Part shown: positions 52,302-60,635 of the stretch, piece by piece
Numbering within the stretch: position 1 is the stretch's first letter
Layout of the letters: the number at the start of each line of letters is the position of its first letter
From: Lentilactobacillus sunkii DSM 19904
Lineage (GTDB): Bacteria; Bacillota; Bacilli; Lactobacillales; Lactobacillaceae
Reading direction: 5' to 3'
Assembly (NCBI RefSeq): GCF_001435575.1
Contig: NZ_AZEA01000002.1
Coordinates: 186,001-250,000, forward strand
DNA: 64,000 bases
The notes under the pieces: generated by a model
Told to the model about the DNA's origin: nothing
Database searches by the model: none
Seen by the model: only the letters and a program-made list of their open reading frames with translations
Made by a program: the position numbers and the translations under genes

Positions 52302-53066
52302 CTATTCTTTGACAACGGTCCATTCGTTAATTGACTTGCCGGAATCATCCTTCAAGACCAGCCAGCTGTTGGTACCGCCAAAATACAGGAACAGTCCAAC
52401 CTCATTAACCGACTTCAAAACGATATCCTCAGTGGTCGTAAAATCATCAAAGCTATCAGCATGTTCAGCACGTAAGCGTTCCGCAAATCGGGCTGAAAAG
52501 CCAAGCGAGCCGTCTTTATTAAGCTCAGGATCAGGCTTCATGACTGCTCCTGCTTTAATCAACATCTCATTACGTTTCTGCCAATAAACTGTGGCTTTGG
52601 CACCGTCATGATCAACATGAAATGGAATCTGACTAACCTGCTTCGTAAATCGGTGACGGGGCTTGCCCTTAAACTTCTTCTTCGGCATGAATATGGATCT
52701 GAACCCGAGGCCATTTAAGACAGTTAAGATTAAATCCCGAAACTTCTCAACCGTTGGCCTCTGACTGCCAGGAAGCTTGATATTCTCCAGTTGATCAGCT
52801 TTAGTCATTCCCTGTTCCAGCGCATATTCAGAAAAGCTCTTCGCCAGGTAATCAGTTTCCAAGTCCCATGCTGGTTCAATGACAATCACCCCGTCGAACT
52901 TCTTGTCAACCGGTTCATCTTGGACACTGACCAATTTGCCGTTCTTCAAATACAGGTTGACTGTGCCAGGATTCGACAAATTCTCGCTGGTAATCAAAAT
53001 TTTACCTTGGCCCTTCGGTAACTCGATGACTGTAGAGCTTTCGTTGATTTCAACATTTAACTTCAT
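52302..53066 (-). CDS. Hypothetical protein
   Basis: A 254-residue soluble protein of mixed structure. The N-terminal beta region (MKLNVEINESSTVIELPKGQGKILITSENLSNPGTVNLYLKNGKLVSV) is followed by a helical part (ENIKLPGSQRPTVEKFRDLILTVLNGLGF), a basic segment (MPKKKFKGKPRHRFTKQ) and a C-terminal part (KATVYWQKRNEMLIKAGAVM, FGGTNSWLVLKDDSGKSINEW). No family is recognised. GGGAGGG lies before ATG 53066. It has its own terminator. Confidence 0.65.
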   Translation of the reverse strand: MKLNVEINESSTVIELPKGQGKILITSENLSNPGTVNLYLKNGKLVSVQDEPVDKKFDGVIVIEPAWDLETDYLAKSFSEYALEQGMTKADQLENIKLPGSQRPTVEKFRDLILTVLNGLGFRSIFMPKKKFKGKPRHRFTKQVSQIPFHVDHDGAKATVYWQKRNEMLIKAGAVMKPDPELNKDGSLGFSARFAERLRAEHADSFDDFTTTEDIVLKSVNEVGLFLYFGGTNSWLVLKDDSGKSINEWTVVKE

Positions 53067-53185
53067 TTGACGCCCTCCCCAACAACCTTTTTAATCAAAT
53101 TCATCATACCATTAATACAAAAAAATAAGCTCATCACCCTCATTTTCGGGCAATGAACCTATTTTCAATCGAAGAAGAAAGTTTG

Positions 53186-55585
53186 TTATTCAGTTGTTAC
53201 CTTGTTAGTCAGATTACCAGACCATTTCCAATTTTTAACTTCTGGAATATCGGTTCCGTTTTCGCGGATGTAATCGTGGTGCTTTTGAAGCATTTGATCC
53301 ATCTTGGCCACAAAGTCATCGGCCTCATCAGCAAATTTGGTTCTGCCAATCGCATCCTTAGCCAAATGGTAACGGTCAAGTTCGTTCAAGACCCGCATAT
53401 CAAATGGTGTGGTAATATCACCGTTCTCACGGTAACCGTGGAAGCTGATGTTGTGATTGTGCCGGTTATATACCAAGCCACGGAAGGTATTTTCAAAGCC
53501 GTGGAATGCAAAGATAACTGGTTTATCAGTGGTAAAGTACTTGTCAAATTCAGCTTGAGTTAAGCCGCGACTGTCCTGATCTTCGTTGCTTGGACGTAAT
53601 CTCAAGATGTCGATAACGTTGATAAAGCGAACTTTCAGCTGTGGGAATGTTTCATGAAGCATATCAATGGCAGCTAAACTTTCCATTGTGGCTTCAGTTC
53701 CGGCAGTGGCAAAGATAATGTCAGGGTCGCCTTCGTCATTTGATGCCCAAGGAATGATGCCTAAGCCGTCGTTAACCAGCTTGGTAGCTTCATCCATTGA
53801 GAACCATTGTGGGCGTGGATGCTTGGAAGCAACGATCAAGTTGATCTTCTCACGGGTTTGTAATGCTGTATTCATAACAGCCAACAATGAATTGGCATCG
53901 GCTGGAACGTACTCATTTACAAGTTCATGACCTTTTTCAGCCAAATGACCAAGCATTCCTGGATCTTGATGGGTATAACCATTGTGATCTTGCTGGAAAG
54001 CGTGGGAAACGTTCATGATGTTCAATGAAGGATAATCATGACGCCATGACTGTTCGTTGGCCTTTCTGAGCCACTTGTAGTGCTGAGTGAGCATTGAATC
54101 AATAACCCGGGTAAATGCTTCATATGAAGCAAAGAATCCGTGACGACCGCTTAATACGTATCCTTCAAGCCAGCCTTCAGCTTGGTGTTCTGAAAGCTGT
54201 GAGTCAATAACCCGGCCTTCAGGAGCCATGTTTTCGTCATTAGGGCTCTTGATTGGTTCTTCCCATTGACGTTTACCGTAATCAAGCATTGAGAAGAACT
54301 TGTTGGATTTGGTTTCGTCTGGGCCAAATGCTCTGAATGACTTGCCGTTGCGCTTCATAATTTCGGTGTAGAAGTTGGATAATACTTCAGTATCTTGCGC
54401 TTCCTTGTCACCTGGCTTGTCAATCTTCAAGGCATAGTCTGCTGGATCAGGCATATCCAACTTTTTGGGGTTGATACCGCCGTTGACGATTGGGTTCATC
54501 GCCATGCGTTGATCGCCTTCAGGAGTGGTTGCTTTGATTTCTGCCTTAACAGAACCATTGCTGTTAAATAGTTTTTCAGGTTCATATGATTTGAGCCAGT
54601 TAATGAGTAAATCTTTATGTTCCATTTGACCGGCACTGACAGGAATCGGTACTTGGTGAGCTCGGAACGAGCCGGCGATTGGATTGCCATCAAGGTCAAA
54701 CTTGGGACCTGTCCAACCCTTTGGTGAGCGAAGAACCAGCATTGGCCAGTGTGGTAAAGTGTCGTCATTGTTGTCACGGGCGTTCTTTTGAATGCTCTTG
54801 ATTTCAGTGATAATTGCATCCATTGTCTTGGCCATTGTCTGATGAACTCGAGCATAATCTTCAGGATCGCCTTTGGTCTCAACAAAGTATGGCTCCCAGC
54901 CCATGCCTTCAAAGTACTTGGTCAAGTCGGCATCGCTCATCCGGGACAGAATGGTTGGATTGGAAATCTTGAATCCGTTCAGGTTCAACATTGGCAGGAT
55001 GGCACCGTCATGGATCGGGTTGATAAATTTGTTGGAGAACCATGATGCAGCTAATGGGCCGGTTTCGGCTTCACCATCACCAATTTCAACTGCGGCAATA
55101 ACGTCGGGGTTGTCTAAAATTGCTCCGGTACCGTGGGCGATGGAGTAACCCAACTCGCCGCCTTCATGCATTGAACCTGGTGTTTCTGGAGCCGCATGAG
55201 AAGCAACGCCACCTGGGAACGAGAATTGTTTGAACAGTCTTTGAAGACCAGTTTCATTCTGGGCAATCTTTGGATAAATTTCACTGTAACTGCCGTCAAG
55301 ATATGAATTGGAAACCATGACCTGACCACCGTGACCGGAACCTTCGATGTAAAACATGTTCAAATTATATTTTTTAATAACCCGATTTAAGTGGGCATAC
55401 ATAAAGTTCTGTGAAGCAATCGTGCCCCAATGGCCAATCGGCTTGATTTTAACGTCGTCAGCGGTCAAATCACGTTTGAGCAACGGATTGTCTCGCAGGA
55501 ACAATTGTCCAACGGATAAGTAGTTGGCAGCTTTCCAGTACATGTTGACTTTTTGCAGGTATTCATCGGAATCGAAGTTCGTCAT
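53186..55585 (-). CDS. xfp: Xylulose-5-P/fructose-6-P phosphoketolase
   Basis: A 799-residue thiamine-diphosphate enzyme that splits xylulose-5-phosphate (and often fructose-6-phosphate) with phosphate into acetyl phosphate plus glyceraldehyde-3-P or erythrose-4-P. It is the core step of heterolactic and pentose fermentation. Signatures: [76 protein letters not shown] (ThDP/Mg site) and [12 protein letters not shown]. Full length for the family (about 790-825). AGGAGG lies 7 bases before ATG 55585. It connects directly with the arabinosidase islands, whose arabinose ends up as xylulose-5-P. Monocistronic with a distinct palindrome in its leader. Confidence 0.96.
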
Positions 55586-55633
55586 ATTAGTAACCTCCTG
55601 AATTTAACAGTAACGTTATTACCAATTTGATTA

Positions 55634-55692
55634 TTGGACCGGTCCAAATCAAATTACAAGTTTATTGTATGCCTGCATGACTGATAATTCAA
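55634..55692 (-). promoter_or_regulatory. xfp promoter with palindromic operator
   Basis: Minus-strand -35 TTGAAT (plus 55687-55692), 17-base spacer and -10 TACAAT (plus 55664-55669). Downstream, in the untranslated leader, lies the perfect 14-bp palindrome TTGGACCGGTCCAA (55634-55647), a candidate repressor roadblock. It does not resemble a cre site. Confidence 0.75.
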
Positions 55693-55776
55693 TGGTTTAA
55701 GCATTGTGATATTTTATTTTGATATAGACAGAATTTATATTAAAATCATTTTGTATAAATGGTTCATTAATAAATG

Positions 55777-55802
55777 CCCCCATCATCTTTCTTGATGGGA
55801 GC
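55777..55802 (-). terminator. Weak hairpin after small ORF
   Basis: CCCATCA (55779-55785) pairs with TGATGGG (55793-55799). On the minus strand it follows the 27-codon ORF and could end the metallophosphoesterase transcript, but only a broken T run follows. Confidence 0.45.
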
Positions 55803-55808
55803 TTTGTG

Positions 55809-55892
55809 CTAATAATGTTTTGACCGGTGAACGTGGAGATACTTTGCTAGAAAATAAGCCAGGTCACAATACAAGGTTTCAATTTCTTTCAT
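55809..55892 (-). CDS. 27-residue small protein
   Basis: The minus-strand frame ATG 55892 to TAG 55809 encodes MKEIETLYCDLAYFLAKYLH followed by VHRSKHY. The ribosome binding site GGAGG is formed by the last codons of the upstream metallophosphoesterase gene, 7 bases before the ATG. Only 2 bases separate that gene's TGA from this start, so translation is probably coupled. It has an amphipathic or weakly hydrophobic helix with a basic end and one Cys. Function unknown. The spacing and binding site argue for real translation. Confidence 0.6.
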   Translation of the reverse strand: MKEIETLYCDLAYFLAKYLHVHRSKHY

Positions 55893-55894
55893 CG

Positions 55895-56743
55895 TCAGTC
55901 CTCCAATACATACATGACGCGTTTCAGTTCATTCAATGCATCCCCGGGATTCTGCCACTGAAAATCATAGCCCAGCGATAGGTTTCGGTAGCGAATACCG
56001 CTTTCCAGCACGCTGTTAGGCATGTGTGAATGGCCGCTTAACGACAAGCTGACATGGTTGTGCTCGAAAATTTGTCGATAACGGTCACTGCCTAACTGAT
56101 ACATAAAACGATCGTAAAATGGGATTGGCATCTGGCGGGCCAACTTCTTAGTTGGCAGCATGTGACTTGCCACCAGCAACTTCTTGCCGACGACATTCAT
56201 CTGATTGATTTGGTGCTGCCAGTCAAAAATCTGTTGAGTTACCCAAAGCCGATCACGACGATAGCTGATTTGATTGCCATTAATATACATTTGGTCAGGC
56301 CAAACATGCTTGGCGACAAAATTGTCAGCGTAACGCGATCCTTTAGCTTCCGAAAAGCCGTTTGCGAATGTGTAATCATACCAGCCGTTGATGCCGGTGA
56401 TTACCCAATGATCGGTTTCAATTGGATGCTTGGTCAACGACATCGGCAGGTTATCCAGGTCATGGTAGGCATTTCTTGAAGCCTGCTGGATCTCATGCAC
56501 GGTCTTTTCGCGTGGATGATCAACATATAAGTCATGATTACCAACCAGCGTGTAAAACGGAATTGAAATATTGTCTTCCAGCCGTTCATAAAACAGCAGA
56601 TTCCGCTGGAGACCATTTGCCGAATCACCCATAATCACTAATTGGTCTAATCGTTCATCCTTGATCAGCTGCTGCAGAACAGTCACGAAATCATATTGGC
56701 GGTTAAAGTCCGTATGTAAATCCGACACAAATCCGATGCGCAT
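55895..56743 (-). CDS. Metallophosphoesterase
   Basis: A 282-residue calcineurin-like phosphoesterase. All metal motifs are present: FVSDLHTDF (DxH), VIMGDSANG (GD), TLVGNHDLY (GNHD), LLVASHMLP (H) and LSGHSHMPN (GHSH). The substrate (nucleotide, phosphodiester or protein phosphate) is not evident. GAAGG lies 6 bases before ATG 56743. Followed by the 27-codon ORF. Confidence 0.88.
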   Translation of the reverse strand: MRIGFVSDLHTDFNRQYDFVTVLQQLIKDERLDQLVIMGDSANGLQRNLLFYERLEDNISIPFYTLVGNHDLYVDHPREKTVHEIQQASRNAYHDLDNLPMSLTKHPIETDHWVITGINGWYDYTFANGFSEAKGSRYADNFVAKHVWPDQMYINGNQISYRRDRLWVTQQIFDWQHQINQMNVVGKKLLVASHMLPTKKLARQMPIPFYDRFMYQLGSDRYRQIFEHNHVSLSLSGHSHMPNSVLESGIRYRNLSLGYDFQWQNPGDALNELKRVMYVLED

Positions 56744-56855
56744 GGTTAGCCTTCTTCCAAATATTATATTATTTTCTTTTATTGTATCTCACAGAGTCAT
56801 TTCATCGACAATATCTGATCATCTTAAAAAATTCATTATTAATAAATCATCTATC

Positions 56856-56930
56856 ACTAATTTACGTAATTAGTAATCAGACACAAATCAAAAATAGATT
56901 GATTCATTTGATTATATCATTTATGATATA
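56856..56930 (+). promoter_or_regulatory. Operator palindromes of the toxin-antitoxin operon
   Basis: TATATCAT and ATGATATA (56913-56930) form an 8-bp-arm inverted repeat 24 bases before the toxin start, a typical place for antitoxin autorepression. A second near-palindrome, ACTAATT...AATTAGT, lies at 56856-56874. The rest of the gap from 56744 is AT-rich with nothing further recognised. Confidence 0.65.
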
Positions 56931-56953
56931 GACAGATGGTAGAGGTAAACAAA

Positions 56954-57310
56954 ATGAAGTTTCACTACTATGATTATAAAGAGTTCCGGAAGTTCCTTGA
57001 TAACCTTTCTGAAGAAGATATGTCAATTATCCTTTCAAAAATCAGAATGGCTGAAAGGATTGGTATTGTTTCAGCTATGAAATATCAGTTCATCAAAAAA
57101 CTGGAACCAAATTTGTATGAAATTAGAATTTATTTATCACATGATATCAGTAGATCCATCTACTTCAAGTCCGTGGAAGGGAACTACGTAATCAGCAATT
57201 CATTTATCAAGAAGACTCAAAAGACACCTCAATCTGAGCTAAAGAAAGCTCGCCATCGCAGGAGGAAATTTAATGACAGAAACAGAGAACCTAATCAAAG
57301 ATCTCAGTAA
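56954..57310 (+). CDS. higB: RelE/HigB-type toxin (Gp49-like)
   Basis: A 118-residue basic protein of the phage Gp49-like/HigB group. The central region KYQFIKKLEPNLYEIRIYLSHDISRSIYFKSVEGNYVISNSFIKKTQKTP follows the RelE-fold pattern (leucine-rich helices, then LYEIR and R-I-x-Y-F strands, then HxFxKKxxKTP-like, here NSFIKKTQKTP). Such toxins are ribosome-dependent mRNA interferases. AGAGG lies 8 bases before ATG 56954; the in-frame ATG six codons upstream has no site. Its 3' end overlaps the antitoxin gene by 38 bases, the toxin-first order typical of HigBA. Confidence 0.87.
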   Translation: MKFHYYDYKEFRKFLDNLSEEDMSIILSKIRMAERIGIVSAMKYQFIKKLEPNLYEIRIYLSHDISRSIYFKSVEGNYVISNSFIKKTQKTPQSELKKARHRRRKFNDRNREPNQRSQ

Positions 57311-57548
57311 AACTCATCCTGGATTAAAGGAAAAAATTGCTGTCCACGATGAACAATTCAACTATGCAATGGCGATCATTGATTTGAGAAAAGAATCCGG
57401 ATTAACTCAACAGCAGCTTGCCGATAAGATTGGCGTTCCACAGCCGACTGTTGCCCGTTGGGAAGCCGGAAATGGCAATATCACCATAAAAAACTTGGAA
57501 AAGATTGGCCGTGCAGTTCATAAAAGGCTAGTCATATCATTCGAATAA
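57273..57548 (+). CDS. higA: XRE-family antitoxin (HigA-like)
   Basis: 91 residues with a clear XRE helix-turn-helix: IDLRKESGLTQQQLADKIGVPQPTVARWEAGNGNITIKNLEKIGRAV. The N-terminal 40 residues would wrap the toxin. AGGAGG precedes ATG 57273. Overlap with the toxin frame suggests coupled translation. Likely autorepresses through the TATATCAT palindrome upstream. Confidence 0.9.
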   Translation: MTETENLIKDLSKTHPGLKEKIAVHDEQFNYAMAIIDLRKESGLTQQQLADKIGVPQPTVARWEAGNGNITIKNLEKIGRAVHKRLVISFE

Positions 57549-57559
57549 TCATTAAAATC

Positions 57560-57605
57560 AAAACCGGAAAATCACGACTTTAATCGTGACTTCCCGGTTT
57601 TCTTG
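57560..57605. terminator. Two-part hairpin terminator
   Basis: AAAACCGG (57560-57567) pairs with CCGGTTTT (57594-57601), with TCACGA/TCGTGA inside. It serves the toxin-antitoxin operon and probably the convergent CPBP gene. Confidence 0.8.
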
Positions 57606-57606
57606 T

Positions 57607-58212
57607 CTACAGATAGAACATTAAAAAGACTGTGCTGGCAACATTTGAACAACCGTGAATGATCCAACTTGGGAGGATTGACCCACCGGCTAATTGTTCG
57701 TTGATGTAACCCATCAAATATCCAACGAGACCAGTGAAGATAAATACGCCGAGAATGGTGAAGATACCTGAGGAACTTACGATTCCAAATACATGAATCG
57801 TGGCGAAACAGGCTGCCTGTGCTAAATTCCCCACCAAGAATCCAAAGTAGCTGATCAACCGTTTACCAAGGAACCCCCGAAACAGAATCTCTTCAGCCAA
57901 GGCGGTTTGAATAAACGCATAAAACAGCATCGCAATCATGGCGGCTGGAGTTGCTTTGGCAAACTGAGTGTTGGCAAGGTTCTTAGTGCCTGTCACAAAT
58001 ATGATCAACAAAAGCCCAAGGGCAACTAAAACCGCAAACACAATAACCCCCATCCCCCAGATTTTTGATCGATCTCCAACAACTTTTTTGAGTCCGATCC
58101 ACTGGAAAAAGGACACCTTTTTGTCAGTGAATAACCACCAAATGAGAGGGAATAATGAAAATAAGATCAATTGCAGAAATGAAGTCATTATTTCGTTTAA
58201 TAAAACGATCAT
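57607..58212 (-). CDS. CPBP-family intramembrane metalloprotease
   Basis: A 201-residue membrane protein with about six to seven hydrophobic segments. Motif 1 is ALAEEILFRGFLGKRL (EExxxR, Glu107/108, Arg112), motif 2 is CFATIHVFG with its His, and motif 3 is SWIIHGCSNVAS. This is the Abi/Rce1-type protease family, which in lactobacilli often serves bacteriocin immunity or membrane-protein processing. No bacteriocin gene is visible nearby. GGGGG lies before ATG 58212. Confidence 0.87.
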   Translation of the reverse strand: MIVLLNEIMTSFLQLILFSLFPLIWWLFTDKKVSFFQWIGLKKVVGDRSKIWGMGVIVFAVLVALGLLLIIFVTGTKNLANTQFAKATPAAMIAMLFYAFIQTALAEEILFRGFLGKRLISYFGFLVGNLAQAACFATIHVFGIVSSSGIFTILGVFIFTGLVGYLMGYINEQLAGGSILPSWIIHGCSNVASTVFLMFYL

Positions 58213-58295
58213 AAAAAGCCCCCTTTATTTGAATCAAATGATTATGTTTAGTCCATTGTATCAGGGTTTGAGAGCATCTGACCATATTCAGGTAT

Positions 58296-58327
58296 CAAAA
58301 AAGCCTATCGACCAGGCCGACAGGCTT
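58296..58327 (-). terminator. Terminator of the lysine operon
   Basis: AAGCCTGTCG pairs with CGATAGGCTT on the minus strand, followed by TTTTTTGATA. It lies 22 bases after asd. Confidence 0.85.
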
Positions 58328-58348
58328 ACAAACAATATTTATTTAATA

Positions 58349-59428
58349 TTAACCGAGGTAAGGATTATCAGGTACGCGAACCAAATCGTCAGCAACCAAG
58401 CGCTCAGCAATCTGGACAGCATTCCAAGCAGCACCCTTCAAGAGGTTATCGGAAACAACCCACATGTTGAATGCTCCTTCGTTTTCAAAGTCGGGACGAA
58501 CACGGCCGACAAAGGTTTCGCGCTTGCCTTCAGCTTCGATAGATTGAGGATAGATTTGGTGGGCAGTGTCATCTTGTAAGACAACGCCATCTGCGCCATC
58601 CAAAGCAGCCTTGATTTGATCGGCTGTGGCATTCTTATCAGCAACTTCAAAGTAGACTGACTCACCATGGGCAATCCGAATTGGCACCCGGACACAAGTT
58701 GCAGTAACCTTGATGTCCTTGGCATCCATGTCATCCAACATGATCTTCTTGGTTTCATGGATCATCTTCCACTCTTCGTGAGTGTAGTAACCGTCTGATT
58801 CAAAGACGTCAATTTGTGGTAAGAGGTTAAAGGCCATTTGATAGTGCTTCTTGTCACCTTTAGTTGGCAGAATCTTTGGATCAGTTGGTTCACCATTCAA
58901 GACTTGTTGAGATTCTTCCATCAATTCGTTCAATGCTGATTGACCGGCACCCGAAACGGCCTGATAAGTCGAAACAATGACCTGCTTCAAACCATACTTC
59001 TTGTAAATAGGTTCAAGACAGACCACCATTTGAATGGTTGAACAGTTGGGGTTGGCAATAATGCCGCGATGATTGTAAAGCGCCTTTTCGTTAACTTCGG
59101 GGATAACCAACGGAACTTCTTTTTCCATTCGGAAGGCACTGGTATTATCAACACAGACAGCCCCGCGTTTAACAGCTTCCGGTAAAAACTTCTTGGAAGT
59201 TGAACCACCAGCTGAAGACAAAACCAAATCAATCCCGTTGAATGAGTCCGGTGTGGTTTCTTCAACCGTGTGATCTTCACCACGGAATTGCAATACCTTG
59301 CCCGCTGAACGTGATGAGGCCAACAGCTTAACACTCTTAACCGGAATGGTTGACTGCTCTAATTGTTGAATCATGCGGGTTCCAACAGCTCCCGTAGCAC
59401 CTAAAATTGCGACGTTAAACTCTTTCAT
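58349..59428 (-). CDS. asd: Aspartate-semialdehyde dehydrogenase
   Basis: A 359-residue NADPH enzyme reducing aspartyl phosphate to aspartate semialdehyde, the branch to lysine, threonine and methionine. N-terminal [10 protein letters not shown] binds NADP, the active-site Cys is in [11 protein letters not shown], and the catalytic His is in [19 protein letters not shown] lies before ATG 59428. Last gene of the operon dapH, deacetylase, dapA, dapB, patA, asd. Confidence 0.95.
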
Positions 59429-59447
59429 CTAACTAATCCCCTTTTCG

Positions 59448-60635
59448 TTATTTCGTTAATGCAAGTAAATAATCGTTCATGCGATCCATGGCCAACTTGA
59501 TGTCATCATCAGAAGCAGCGTAAGACATCCGAATCCAGCCTTCACCACCGGGACCAAATGCTGATCCGGGGGTGACGCCGACTTTGGCGTCCTTTGCCAA
59601 ATGAGTTGAAAATTCAACTGATGTTTCGTTTATTGTATCAGGAATCTTGGCAAAAATGTAAAATGCGCCTTGAGGCATGACAATATGCATCCCCATTTTC
59701 TCCAACCGATCGGCAATATAGTCCCGGCGTTTGTGGTAGGCAGCCCGCATTGGGACTGGATCTTCCAGCCCATTATTCAAGGCTTCGGCAGCCGCATATT
59801 GGGCTGGATTGGATGGTGCAGTTACCACAAATGCATGCATCTTGGAGGCGTTGGTAACAAAATCCTTTGGAGCTGCAATGTAGCCGATTCGATAACCGGT
59901 CATCGCATGGGATTTTGAGAGACCATTAATTAAGATTGTTTGTCCGGGAATCATCGTGGCGATTGAATGATGTTCAACACCGTAAGTCAATTCACTATAG
60001 ATTTCATCGGCCAACACAAACATTTTGTGTTGAGAAATAATATCAGCGAGGGCTTTTAACTGCTCCGCGGTGTATTCAACACCAGTTGGATTTGATGGAT
60101 AGTTCAAAATAATGGCTTTAACGCTATCACCATTTTCATCGAGCGCTTTTTGAAGCTTTTCAGGAGTTAAAACAAAACCGTCATCAGACGTATCAATTGT
60201 GATCAGTTCAGCGCCGGCCACCTTGATAATAGGGAAATACAACGCAAAGGCAGGGGTTGGCACGATGACCTTGTCACCTGGATTAAGAATTGCGGTCAAT
60301 GATGAATAGATGGCTTCAGTTGCACCGACAGTGACCACAATTTCAGTATCCGGATCATAATCCAATCCGGTTCGCTGCTTGAGGTAATTGCTAATTCCAC
60401 TTCGCAATTCCGGAATTCCTTTTTGAGCGGAATAATGAGATTTATTTTCTTCAATACTCTTAATGGCCGCCTGTTTGGCGTGTTCCGGAACATCAAAATC
60501 CGGTTCACCAATGGTTAATTTGACGATCCCGGGAATTGATGAAATTTCCTGATCAAATTCACGAATTCCTGAAGGCCCTACTGATTTCACATTTTCATTA
60601 ATAACATCTGAAAGTTTGCTATCTAACTGTGGCAT
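59448..60635 (-). CDS. patA: PLP aminotransferase, probable N-acetyl-LL-diaminopimelate aminotransferase
   Basis: A 395-residue class I/II aminotransferase. The PLP lysine is in INGLSKSHAMTGYRIGY; LNYPSNPTGVEY and VLADEIYSELTYG are conserved. PatA-type enzymes aminate N-acetyl-2-amino-6-ketopimelate in the acetylase lysine route, and the operon supplies exactly the steps before and after, so this role is well supported by context. AGGAGG 8 bases before ATG 60635. Confidence 0.92.
   Translation of the reverse strand: MPQLDSKLSDVINENVKSVGPSGIREFDQEISSIPGIVKLTIGEPDFDVPEHAKQAAIKSIEENKSHYSAQKGIPELRSGISNYLKQRTGLDYDPDTEIVVTVGATEAIYSSLTAILNPGDKVIVPTPAFALYFPIIKVAGAELITIDTSDDGFVLTPEKLQKALDENGDSVKAIILNYPSNPTGVEYTAEQLKALADIISQHKMFVLADEIYSELTYGVEHHSIATMIPGQTILINGLSKSHAMTGYRIGYIAAPKDFVTNASKMHAFVVTAPSNPAQYAAAEALNNGLEDPVPMRAAYHKRRDYIADRLEKMGMHIVMPQGAFYIFAKIPDTINETSVEFSTHLAKDAKVGVTPGSAFGPGGEGWIRMSYAASDDDIKLAMDRMNDYLLALTK

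Follow-up and report, generated by a model that had tools for sequence, protein, structure and literature searches.

Operon-encoded microproteins such as CydX and KdpF assist the enzyme of the neighbouring gene. The 27-residue peptide of Lentilactobacillus considered here resembles them in its length (fewer than 40 residues), in its predicted single helix, in the position of its gene beside that of the candidate partner and in being easily missed by annotation. CydX and KdpF are membrane-spanning and become part of membrane complexes, whereas the Lentilactobacillus peptide carries charged residues in the middle of its helix and its neighbour, a metallophosphoesterase (MPE), has no apparent membrane segment. 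No sequence relation to known microproteins such as these was found in Pfam, NCBIfam, PHROGs or PADLOC, in none of which the peptide has a match, and its short length limits the sensitivity of these comparisons.

On the enzyme side, the closest described system is PptH (Rv2795c) of Mycobacterium tuberculosis, which removes 4'-phosphopantetheine from holo-carrier proteins (PMC8557913). The available portion of that paper gives its physiological function as undetermined, describes it as apparently limited to mycobacteria and mentions no microprotein partner (PMC8557913); MPE, in contrast, is adjoined by a 27-aa ORF. The two enzymes share 16-18% identity. A phosphopantetheinyl transferase gene, Rv2794c, lies beside Rv2795c, which is a habit of that locus and not a definition of the enzyme. 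At the 11 MPE loci, inspection by eye of the first 60 residues of the neighbouring ORFs revealed no such transferase gene.

Organization of the locus

The window is a stretch of 64,000 nucleotides from Lentilactobacillus sunkii DSM 19904 (contig NZ_AZEA01000002.1, positions 186,001 to 250,000). Within it, the MPE gene occupies positions 55895-56743 of the minus strand (282 aa) and is the constant upstream neighbour of the small ORF, which follows on the same strand at 55809-55892 (84 nt including the stop, 27 aa, MKEIETLYCDLAYFLAKYLHVHRSKHY). The minus-strand junction between the two reads TTGGAGGACTGACGATG. The MPE stop codon, TGA (55897-55895), is separated by 2 nt from the ATG of the small ORF (55892-55890), and a ribosome-binding sequence, GGAGGA (55899-55904, minus strand), lies within the last MPE codons, 6 nt 5' of this ATG; its GGAGG core (55904-55900) is 7 nt away and also inside the MPE gene. 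The initial annotation had described an overlooked 27-residue protein with this spacing and this core, and its coordinates, sequence and start context were all correct. Common gene finders drop ORFs shorter than 90 nt.

The start context is conserved with variations. Ten of 11 species have GGAGGA at a gap of 6-11 nt from the start. The exception is L. fungorum, whose MPE tail is without this sequence; there the start is shifted, and the longer spacer contains a weaker GAGGA at a distance of 10 nt from it. Measured from the end of the MPE stop, the small ORF begins at -4, +1, +2, +3, +7 or +13 in the 11 species, the -4 arrangement (three species) being an overlapping ATGA. In two species the aligned start is TTG, and an ATG in the same frame lies 9 nt 5' of it.

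Downstream, a terminator-like hairpin with a T-rich tail (55776-55802, minus strand; 10 pairs, loop of 7) begins 6 nt 3' of the stop of the small ORF, so that this ORF is probably the final gene of its unit. The hairpin likely marks the end of a two-gene unit, even though the terminator pattern scan by itself is weak (2 sites in the region vs 1.1 expected from shuffles).

Coding status and selection

In all 11 genomes that have an MPE ortholog, the small ORF is intact directly behind it, with 27 codons from the aligned start (28 in MAG UBA5807). Frameshifts or stops in relatives had been named at the outset as counter-evidence; none was present in the 11 genomes, and over the 11 sequences the two other forward frames contain 10 and 21 stops against 0 in the frame of the small ORF. 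The codon-conservation comparison across orthologous loci, also proposed at the outset, points to purifying selection in this frame: with all pairs summed, pN/pS is 0.34, whereas the two other forward frames have 1.45 and 1.20; for comparison, the value for the MPE gene is 0.26. Differences fall at codon positions 1, 2 and 3 in the ratio 33/24/67 (binomial p = 1.7e-6 for position 3) over five species pairs picked with non-overlapping tree paths, UBA5807 being left out. The amino-acid identity of 0.62 was reached by none of 2000 shuffles of the nucleotide columns (mean 0.37, maximum 0.45). Four residues of the peptide, C9, A12, A16 and R23, are invariant in the 11 species, and K2, E5, D10 (10 of 11), F14, H26 and Y27 are nearly so.

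Because the frame is intact throughout and pN/pS, the codon-position bias and the shuffles agree, we hold it to be nearly certain that the small ORF is, as the initial annotation had proposed, a real coding gene, kept by selection on its protein. Short ORFs are common (104 of at least 20 aa in the six-frame list of positions 52500-59500), but a product of chance, of sequencing error or of a frameshifted MPE tail would hardly be intact in 11 of 11 genomes, occupy three frames relative to MPE and exceed every one of 2000 shuffles, and it deserves almost no credence.

The relative frame is 0 in one species, +1 in five and +2 in five. As it takes all three values among the 11 species, a frameshifted or readthrough MPE tail was rejected; the same freedom fits translational coupling, which was likewise part of the initial annotation. 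The position of the small ORF directly before the hairpin might suggest that the act of translation alone matters, through mRNA stability or transcription termination behind MPE, and not the peptide. Selection at the amino-acid level, with its low pN/pS and the four invariant residues, makes this very improbable.

Properties of the peptide

AF2 predicts one helix, spanning residues 3-29 of the 30-aa L. raoultii homolog (mean pLDDT 77). The predicted helix is aromatic and aliphatic around C9, A12 and A16 and is followed by an end with many His, Arg and Lys residues; the net charge ranges from +1 to +6. The initial annotation had described an aromatic amphipathic helix with a basic end. The predicted helix and the basic end agree with this, while the amphipathicity is weaker than claimed: the hydrophobic moment is modest, the window peptide having a shuffle P of 0.03 and 4 of 11 homologs falling below P = 0.05. 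Position 10 is D or E and position 17 is K or R. Because these charges lie in the middle of the helix, the peptide does not look membrane-spanning; it reads as a helix that would pack on a protein or on a membrane surface. A peptide profile searched against PDB sequences gave only two matches, near E 1.

Distribution and history of the gene pair

MPE orthologs occur in 11 of 24 Lentilactobacillus genomes (64-100% identity over 282 aa), and the small ORF is found in exactly those 11; the remaining 13 have neither. A profile of the 11 peptides returned exactly 11 full-length matches (E 2.9e-20 to 2.0e-15) and none of full length in the other 13 genomes of the genus. Over the 150 genomes searched, 55 had a match at E <= 1, a full-length one in 11; in 397 genomes of the family, 33 matched at E <= 0.1, comprising the 11 full-length matches and 22 partial ones (E 0.015-0.095) that are taken as chance. 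A search of 395 genomes of the order, a sample that overlaps that of the family, gave two matches at E <= 0.001: one is that of the window itself, and the other lies in genome G091. The latter (E 9.4e-5) covers 13 residues within a 190-aa ORF that by eye resembles a membrane transport component, and it was rejected as a coincidence. The plasmid search did not match the small protein, and of 42 pattern matches in viral contigs none was confirmed. No credible homolog was thus found outside the genus in the 397 family and 395 order genomes, the plasmids and the viral contigs. Literature searches on Lactobacillus and Lentilactobacillus small proteins, phosphoesterases, coupling and microproteins gave nothing on the peptide among the matches listed, in the portions of those papers that were available.

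Comparison of 6-12 kb regions at the 11 loci, using ORFs of at least 70 aa, showed that MPE is the sole such ORF common to all, in surroundings of several different kinds. The asd gene lies upstream at six loci (the window, L. kefiri, genome G006, L. parabuchneri, L. rapi and L. fungorum), and four of these six have xpkA downstream. L. hilgardii, L. raoultii and L. diolivorans have a different downstream gene, common to the three, and yet other surroundings are found in L. parafarraginis and UBA5807. Upstream of MPE, three of the species, L. hilgardii, L. parafarraginis and L. raoultii, encode a conserved protein of 95-115 aa (..LQLSFEDYNQAAKKQ..; L154 4687-4977, L153 4843-5130 and L152 1816-2163).

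Genomes G005 and G022 retain asd near xpkA and lack both MPE and the small ORF; other absences, several of them in fragmented drafts, may be assembly gaps. On an Asd tree of 20 genomes of the genus (the 4 of 24 without an Asd match at the threshold were left out), the presence of the pair takes 6 changes, compared with a mean of 6.9 for shuffled labels. Because 184 of 500 shuffles need 6 changes or fewer, presence is no more clustered on this tree than are shuffled labels. Resolution of the MPE gene tree is poor, good support being limited to 3 of its 8 inner branches; given this and the unclustered presence, repeated loss and repeated gain are indistinguishable. Distances between MPE orthologs follow Asd distances (r 0.79, 0 of 5000 permutations as high), as do those between the peptides (r 0.73, 20 of 5000), and the mean amino-acid difference between species is greater for the peptide (0.38) than for MPE (0.29). 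Vertical descent with joint losses of MPE and the small ORF is favoured; joint loss of adjacent genes can reflect a single deletion and not a functional bond.

On the plus strand of the window, divergent from MPE, a small gene (56936-57310) overlaps an HTH gene (57273-57548), and by eye the two look like a HigBA-type toxin-antitoxin pair. At E 0.001, NCBIfam has no match for the product of the first gene; that of the second matches antitoxin-type regulators below the cut-off. A similar pair is present in G005, which has neither MPE nor the small ORF. By eye, L. parabuchneri has a HicBA-like pair between asd and MPE (L019 2212-2864) and G022 a HicB-like ORF between asd and xpkA (L148 1597-2022). 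This spot seems to collect toxin-antitoxin-like modules.

Such modules adjoin the pair in the window and in L. parabuchneri, and its presence is patchy (the 6 changes on the Asd tree), which might suggest a small toxic peptide with MPE as its counter-agent, in the manner of a toxin-antitoxin pair. This we judge quite improbable: the peptide belongs to no PADLOC or PHROGs family, its mid-helix charges are ill-suited to a membrane-spanning toxin, and MPE comes first in the pair and keeps its catalytic motifs.

The phosphoesterase and its likeness to PptH

The window MPE is 89% identical to its L. kefiri ortholog and passes the model of the calcineurin-like phosphoesterases, PF00149 (56.7 bits vs a cut-off of 21.5). 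Among phage families, it matches phrog_1649 (E 5.8e-21), which bears the name metallo-phosphoesterase. Residues D8, H10, D40, N69, H70, H194, H238 and H240, which we take to be the metal ligands, are invariant in 30 aligned sequences. To judge from its sequence, MPE retains the motifs typical of a two-metal phosphodiesterase that is active.

The putative phosphoesterases of TIGR03729 belong to the same superfamily and have in common with MPE an NGWYDYTF-type motif and the metal-ligand motifs. MPE nevertheless falls below the cut-off of that family (148.25), with 116.7 (window), 115.9 and 124.6 bits for three orthologs, whereas a TIGR03729 paralog from L. kefiri scores 300.3 bits. Unlike MPE, this paralog, the only one tried, has no PptH match up to E 1. 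The literature set searched contains no paper that mentions TIGR03729.

By fold and by sequence, the nearest solved relative of MPE is PptH. The query for the fold search was a predicted L. rapi model of enzyme plus peptide, made from the in-frame arrangement of that species with the stop read as Q. PptH of M. tuberculosis (PDB 6unc) took Foldseek ranks 1-4 for this model, and VIA-align gave it a Z of 24.0 (rmsd 3.0, 255 aligned), the next entry having a Z of 16.5. Among solved structures, PptH was also the only phmmer match under E 0.01 for the window MPE (E 7.1e-5), and a profile of 30 MPE sequences ranked it best (E 1.2e-7), followed by two Mre11 sequences (8e-4). A shared fold by itself shows no activity or function. 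Because MPE has motifs of the active type and PptH as its closest solved structure, a phosphopantetheinylated carrier protein is a plausible substrate; that MPE really has a PptH-like substrate is, on the basis of sequence and model, a tentative and somewhat doubtful proposition.

Within MPE, residues ~139-159 (ADNFVAKHVWPDQMYINGNQI) show strong conservation in the genus, but the L. rapi model is less confident here than anywhere else in the enzyme (block pLDDT 59 and 56). The segment may be a mobile lid or a loop that binds a partner.

Proposed partnership between peptide and enzyme

The preferred explanation of the locus is that a genus-specific, 27-residue helical microprotein and MPE form a two-gene unit whose products work together, which the gene arrangement and conservation suggest with moderate probability. 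Ribosomes that finish MPE would re-initiate at the small ORF, or would load at the GGAGGA in the last MPE codons, and the coupled translation would yield enzyme and peptide in linked amounts before the terminator-like hairpin ends the unit. The peptide would then bind MPE, serving it as a small subunit with an accessory or regulatory role, or would tether it to the membrane or to a partner.

The main rival is a microprotein that is real but independent, acting elsewhere as a membrane-surface or partner-binding helix and merely sharing the transcript and the ribosome-binding arrangement of MPE. A predicted aromatic helix with a basic end would suit such a role, and the direct contact with MPE is something that we infer. 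Furthermore, the small ORF is seen behind MPE orthologs and not behind distant phosphoesterases: inspection by eye of the loci of 28 distant MPE homologs (~22-30% identical) revealed no similar ORF behind them, so the MPE fold does not need the peptide. On the other hand, the small ORF never occurs without MPE in the 24 genomes of the genus, nor in full length in the family sample, and the pair stays together while its surroundings differ. These last observations weigh towards partnership, and independence is a possible but distinctly less probable reading.

Returning to a peptide that works with MPE, the L. rapi fold places the peptide in a helix but offers no sign of docking on the enzyme: the middle block of the peptide has a pLDDT of 91, vs 88 for the middle block when the L. 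raoultii homolog is folded by itself. In the alignment behind this fold, the last residues of enzyme-only rows fell under the peptide columns. In a more specific version of the partnership, MPE would be a carrier-protein phosphopantetheinyl hydrolase and the 27-residue peptide its dedicated regulatory subunit. Docked on the PptH-like enzyme, the helix would control when acyl or D-alanyl carrier proteins are stripped of their prosthetic group. This combination is speculative and, at present, unlikely.

Biological significance

Bacterial proteins with fewer than 30 residues are a poorly mapped class, to which the small ORF adds a clean case that can be tested. It represents a genus-level family that has no match in four libraries, a fixed enzyme neighbour and a signature of strong selection. 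We know of no earlier PptH-type hydrolase with a microprotein partner, and the Lentilactobacillus pair, if it proves to be one, would be the first. Should MPE be a PptH-type hydrolase, it would bear on why bacteria remove phosphopantetheine from carrier proteins, a function given as undetermined in the available portion of the PptH paper (PMC8557913), and would place such an enzyme outside the mycobacteria, to which that text describes it as apparently limited (PMC8557913). If this is true, food bacteria would carry out phosphopantetheine removal, with a possible built-in regulator.
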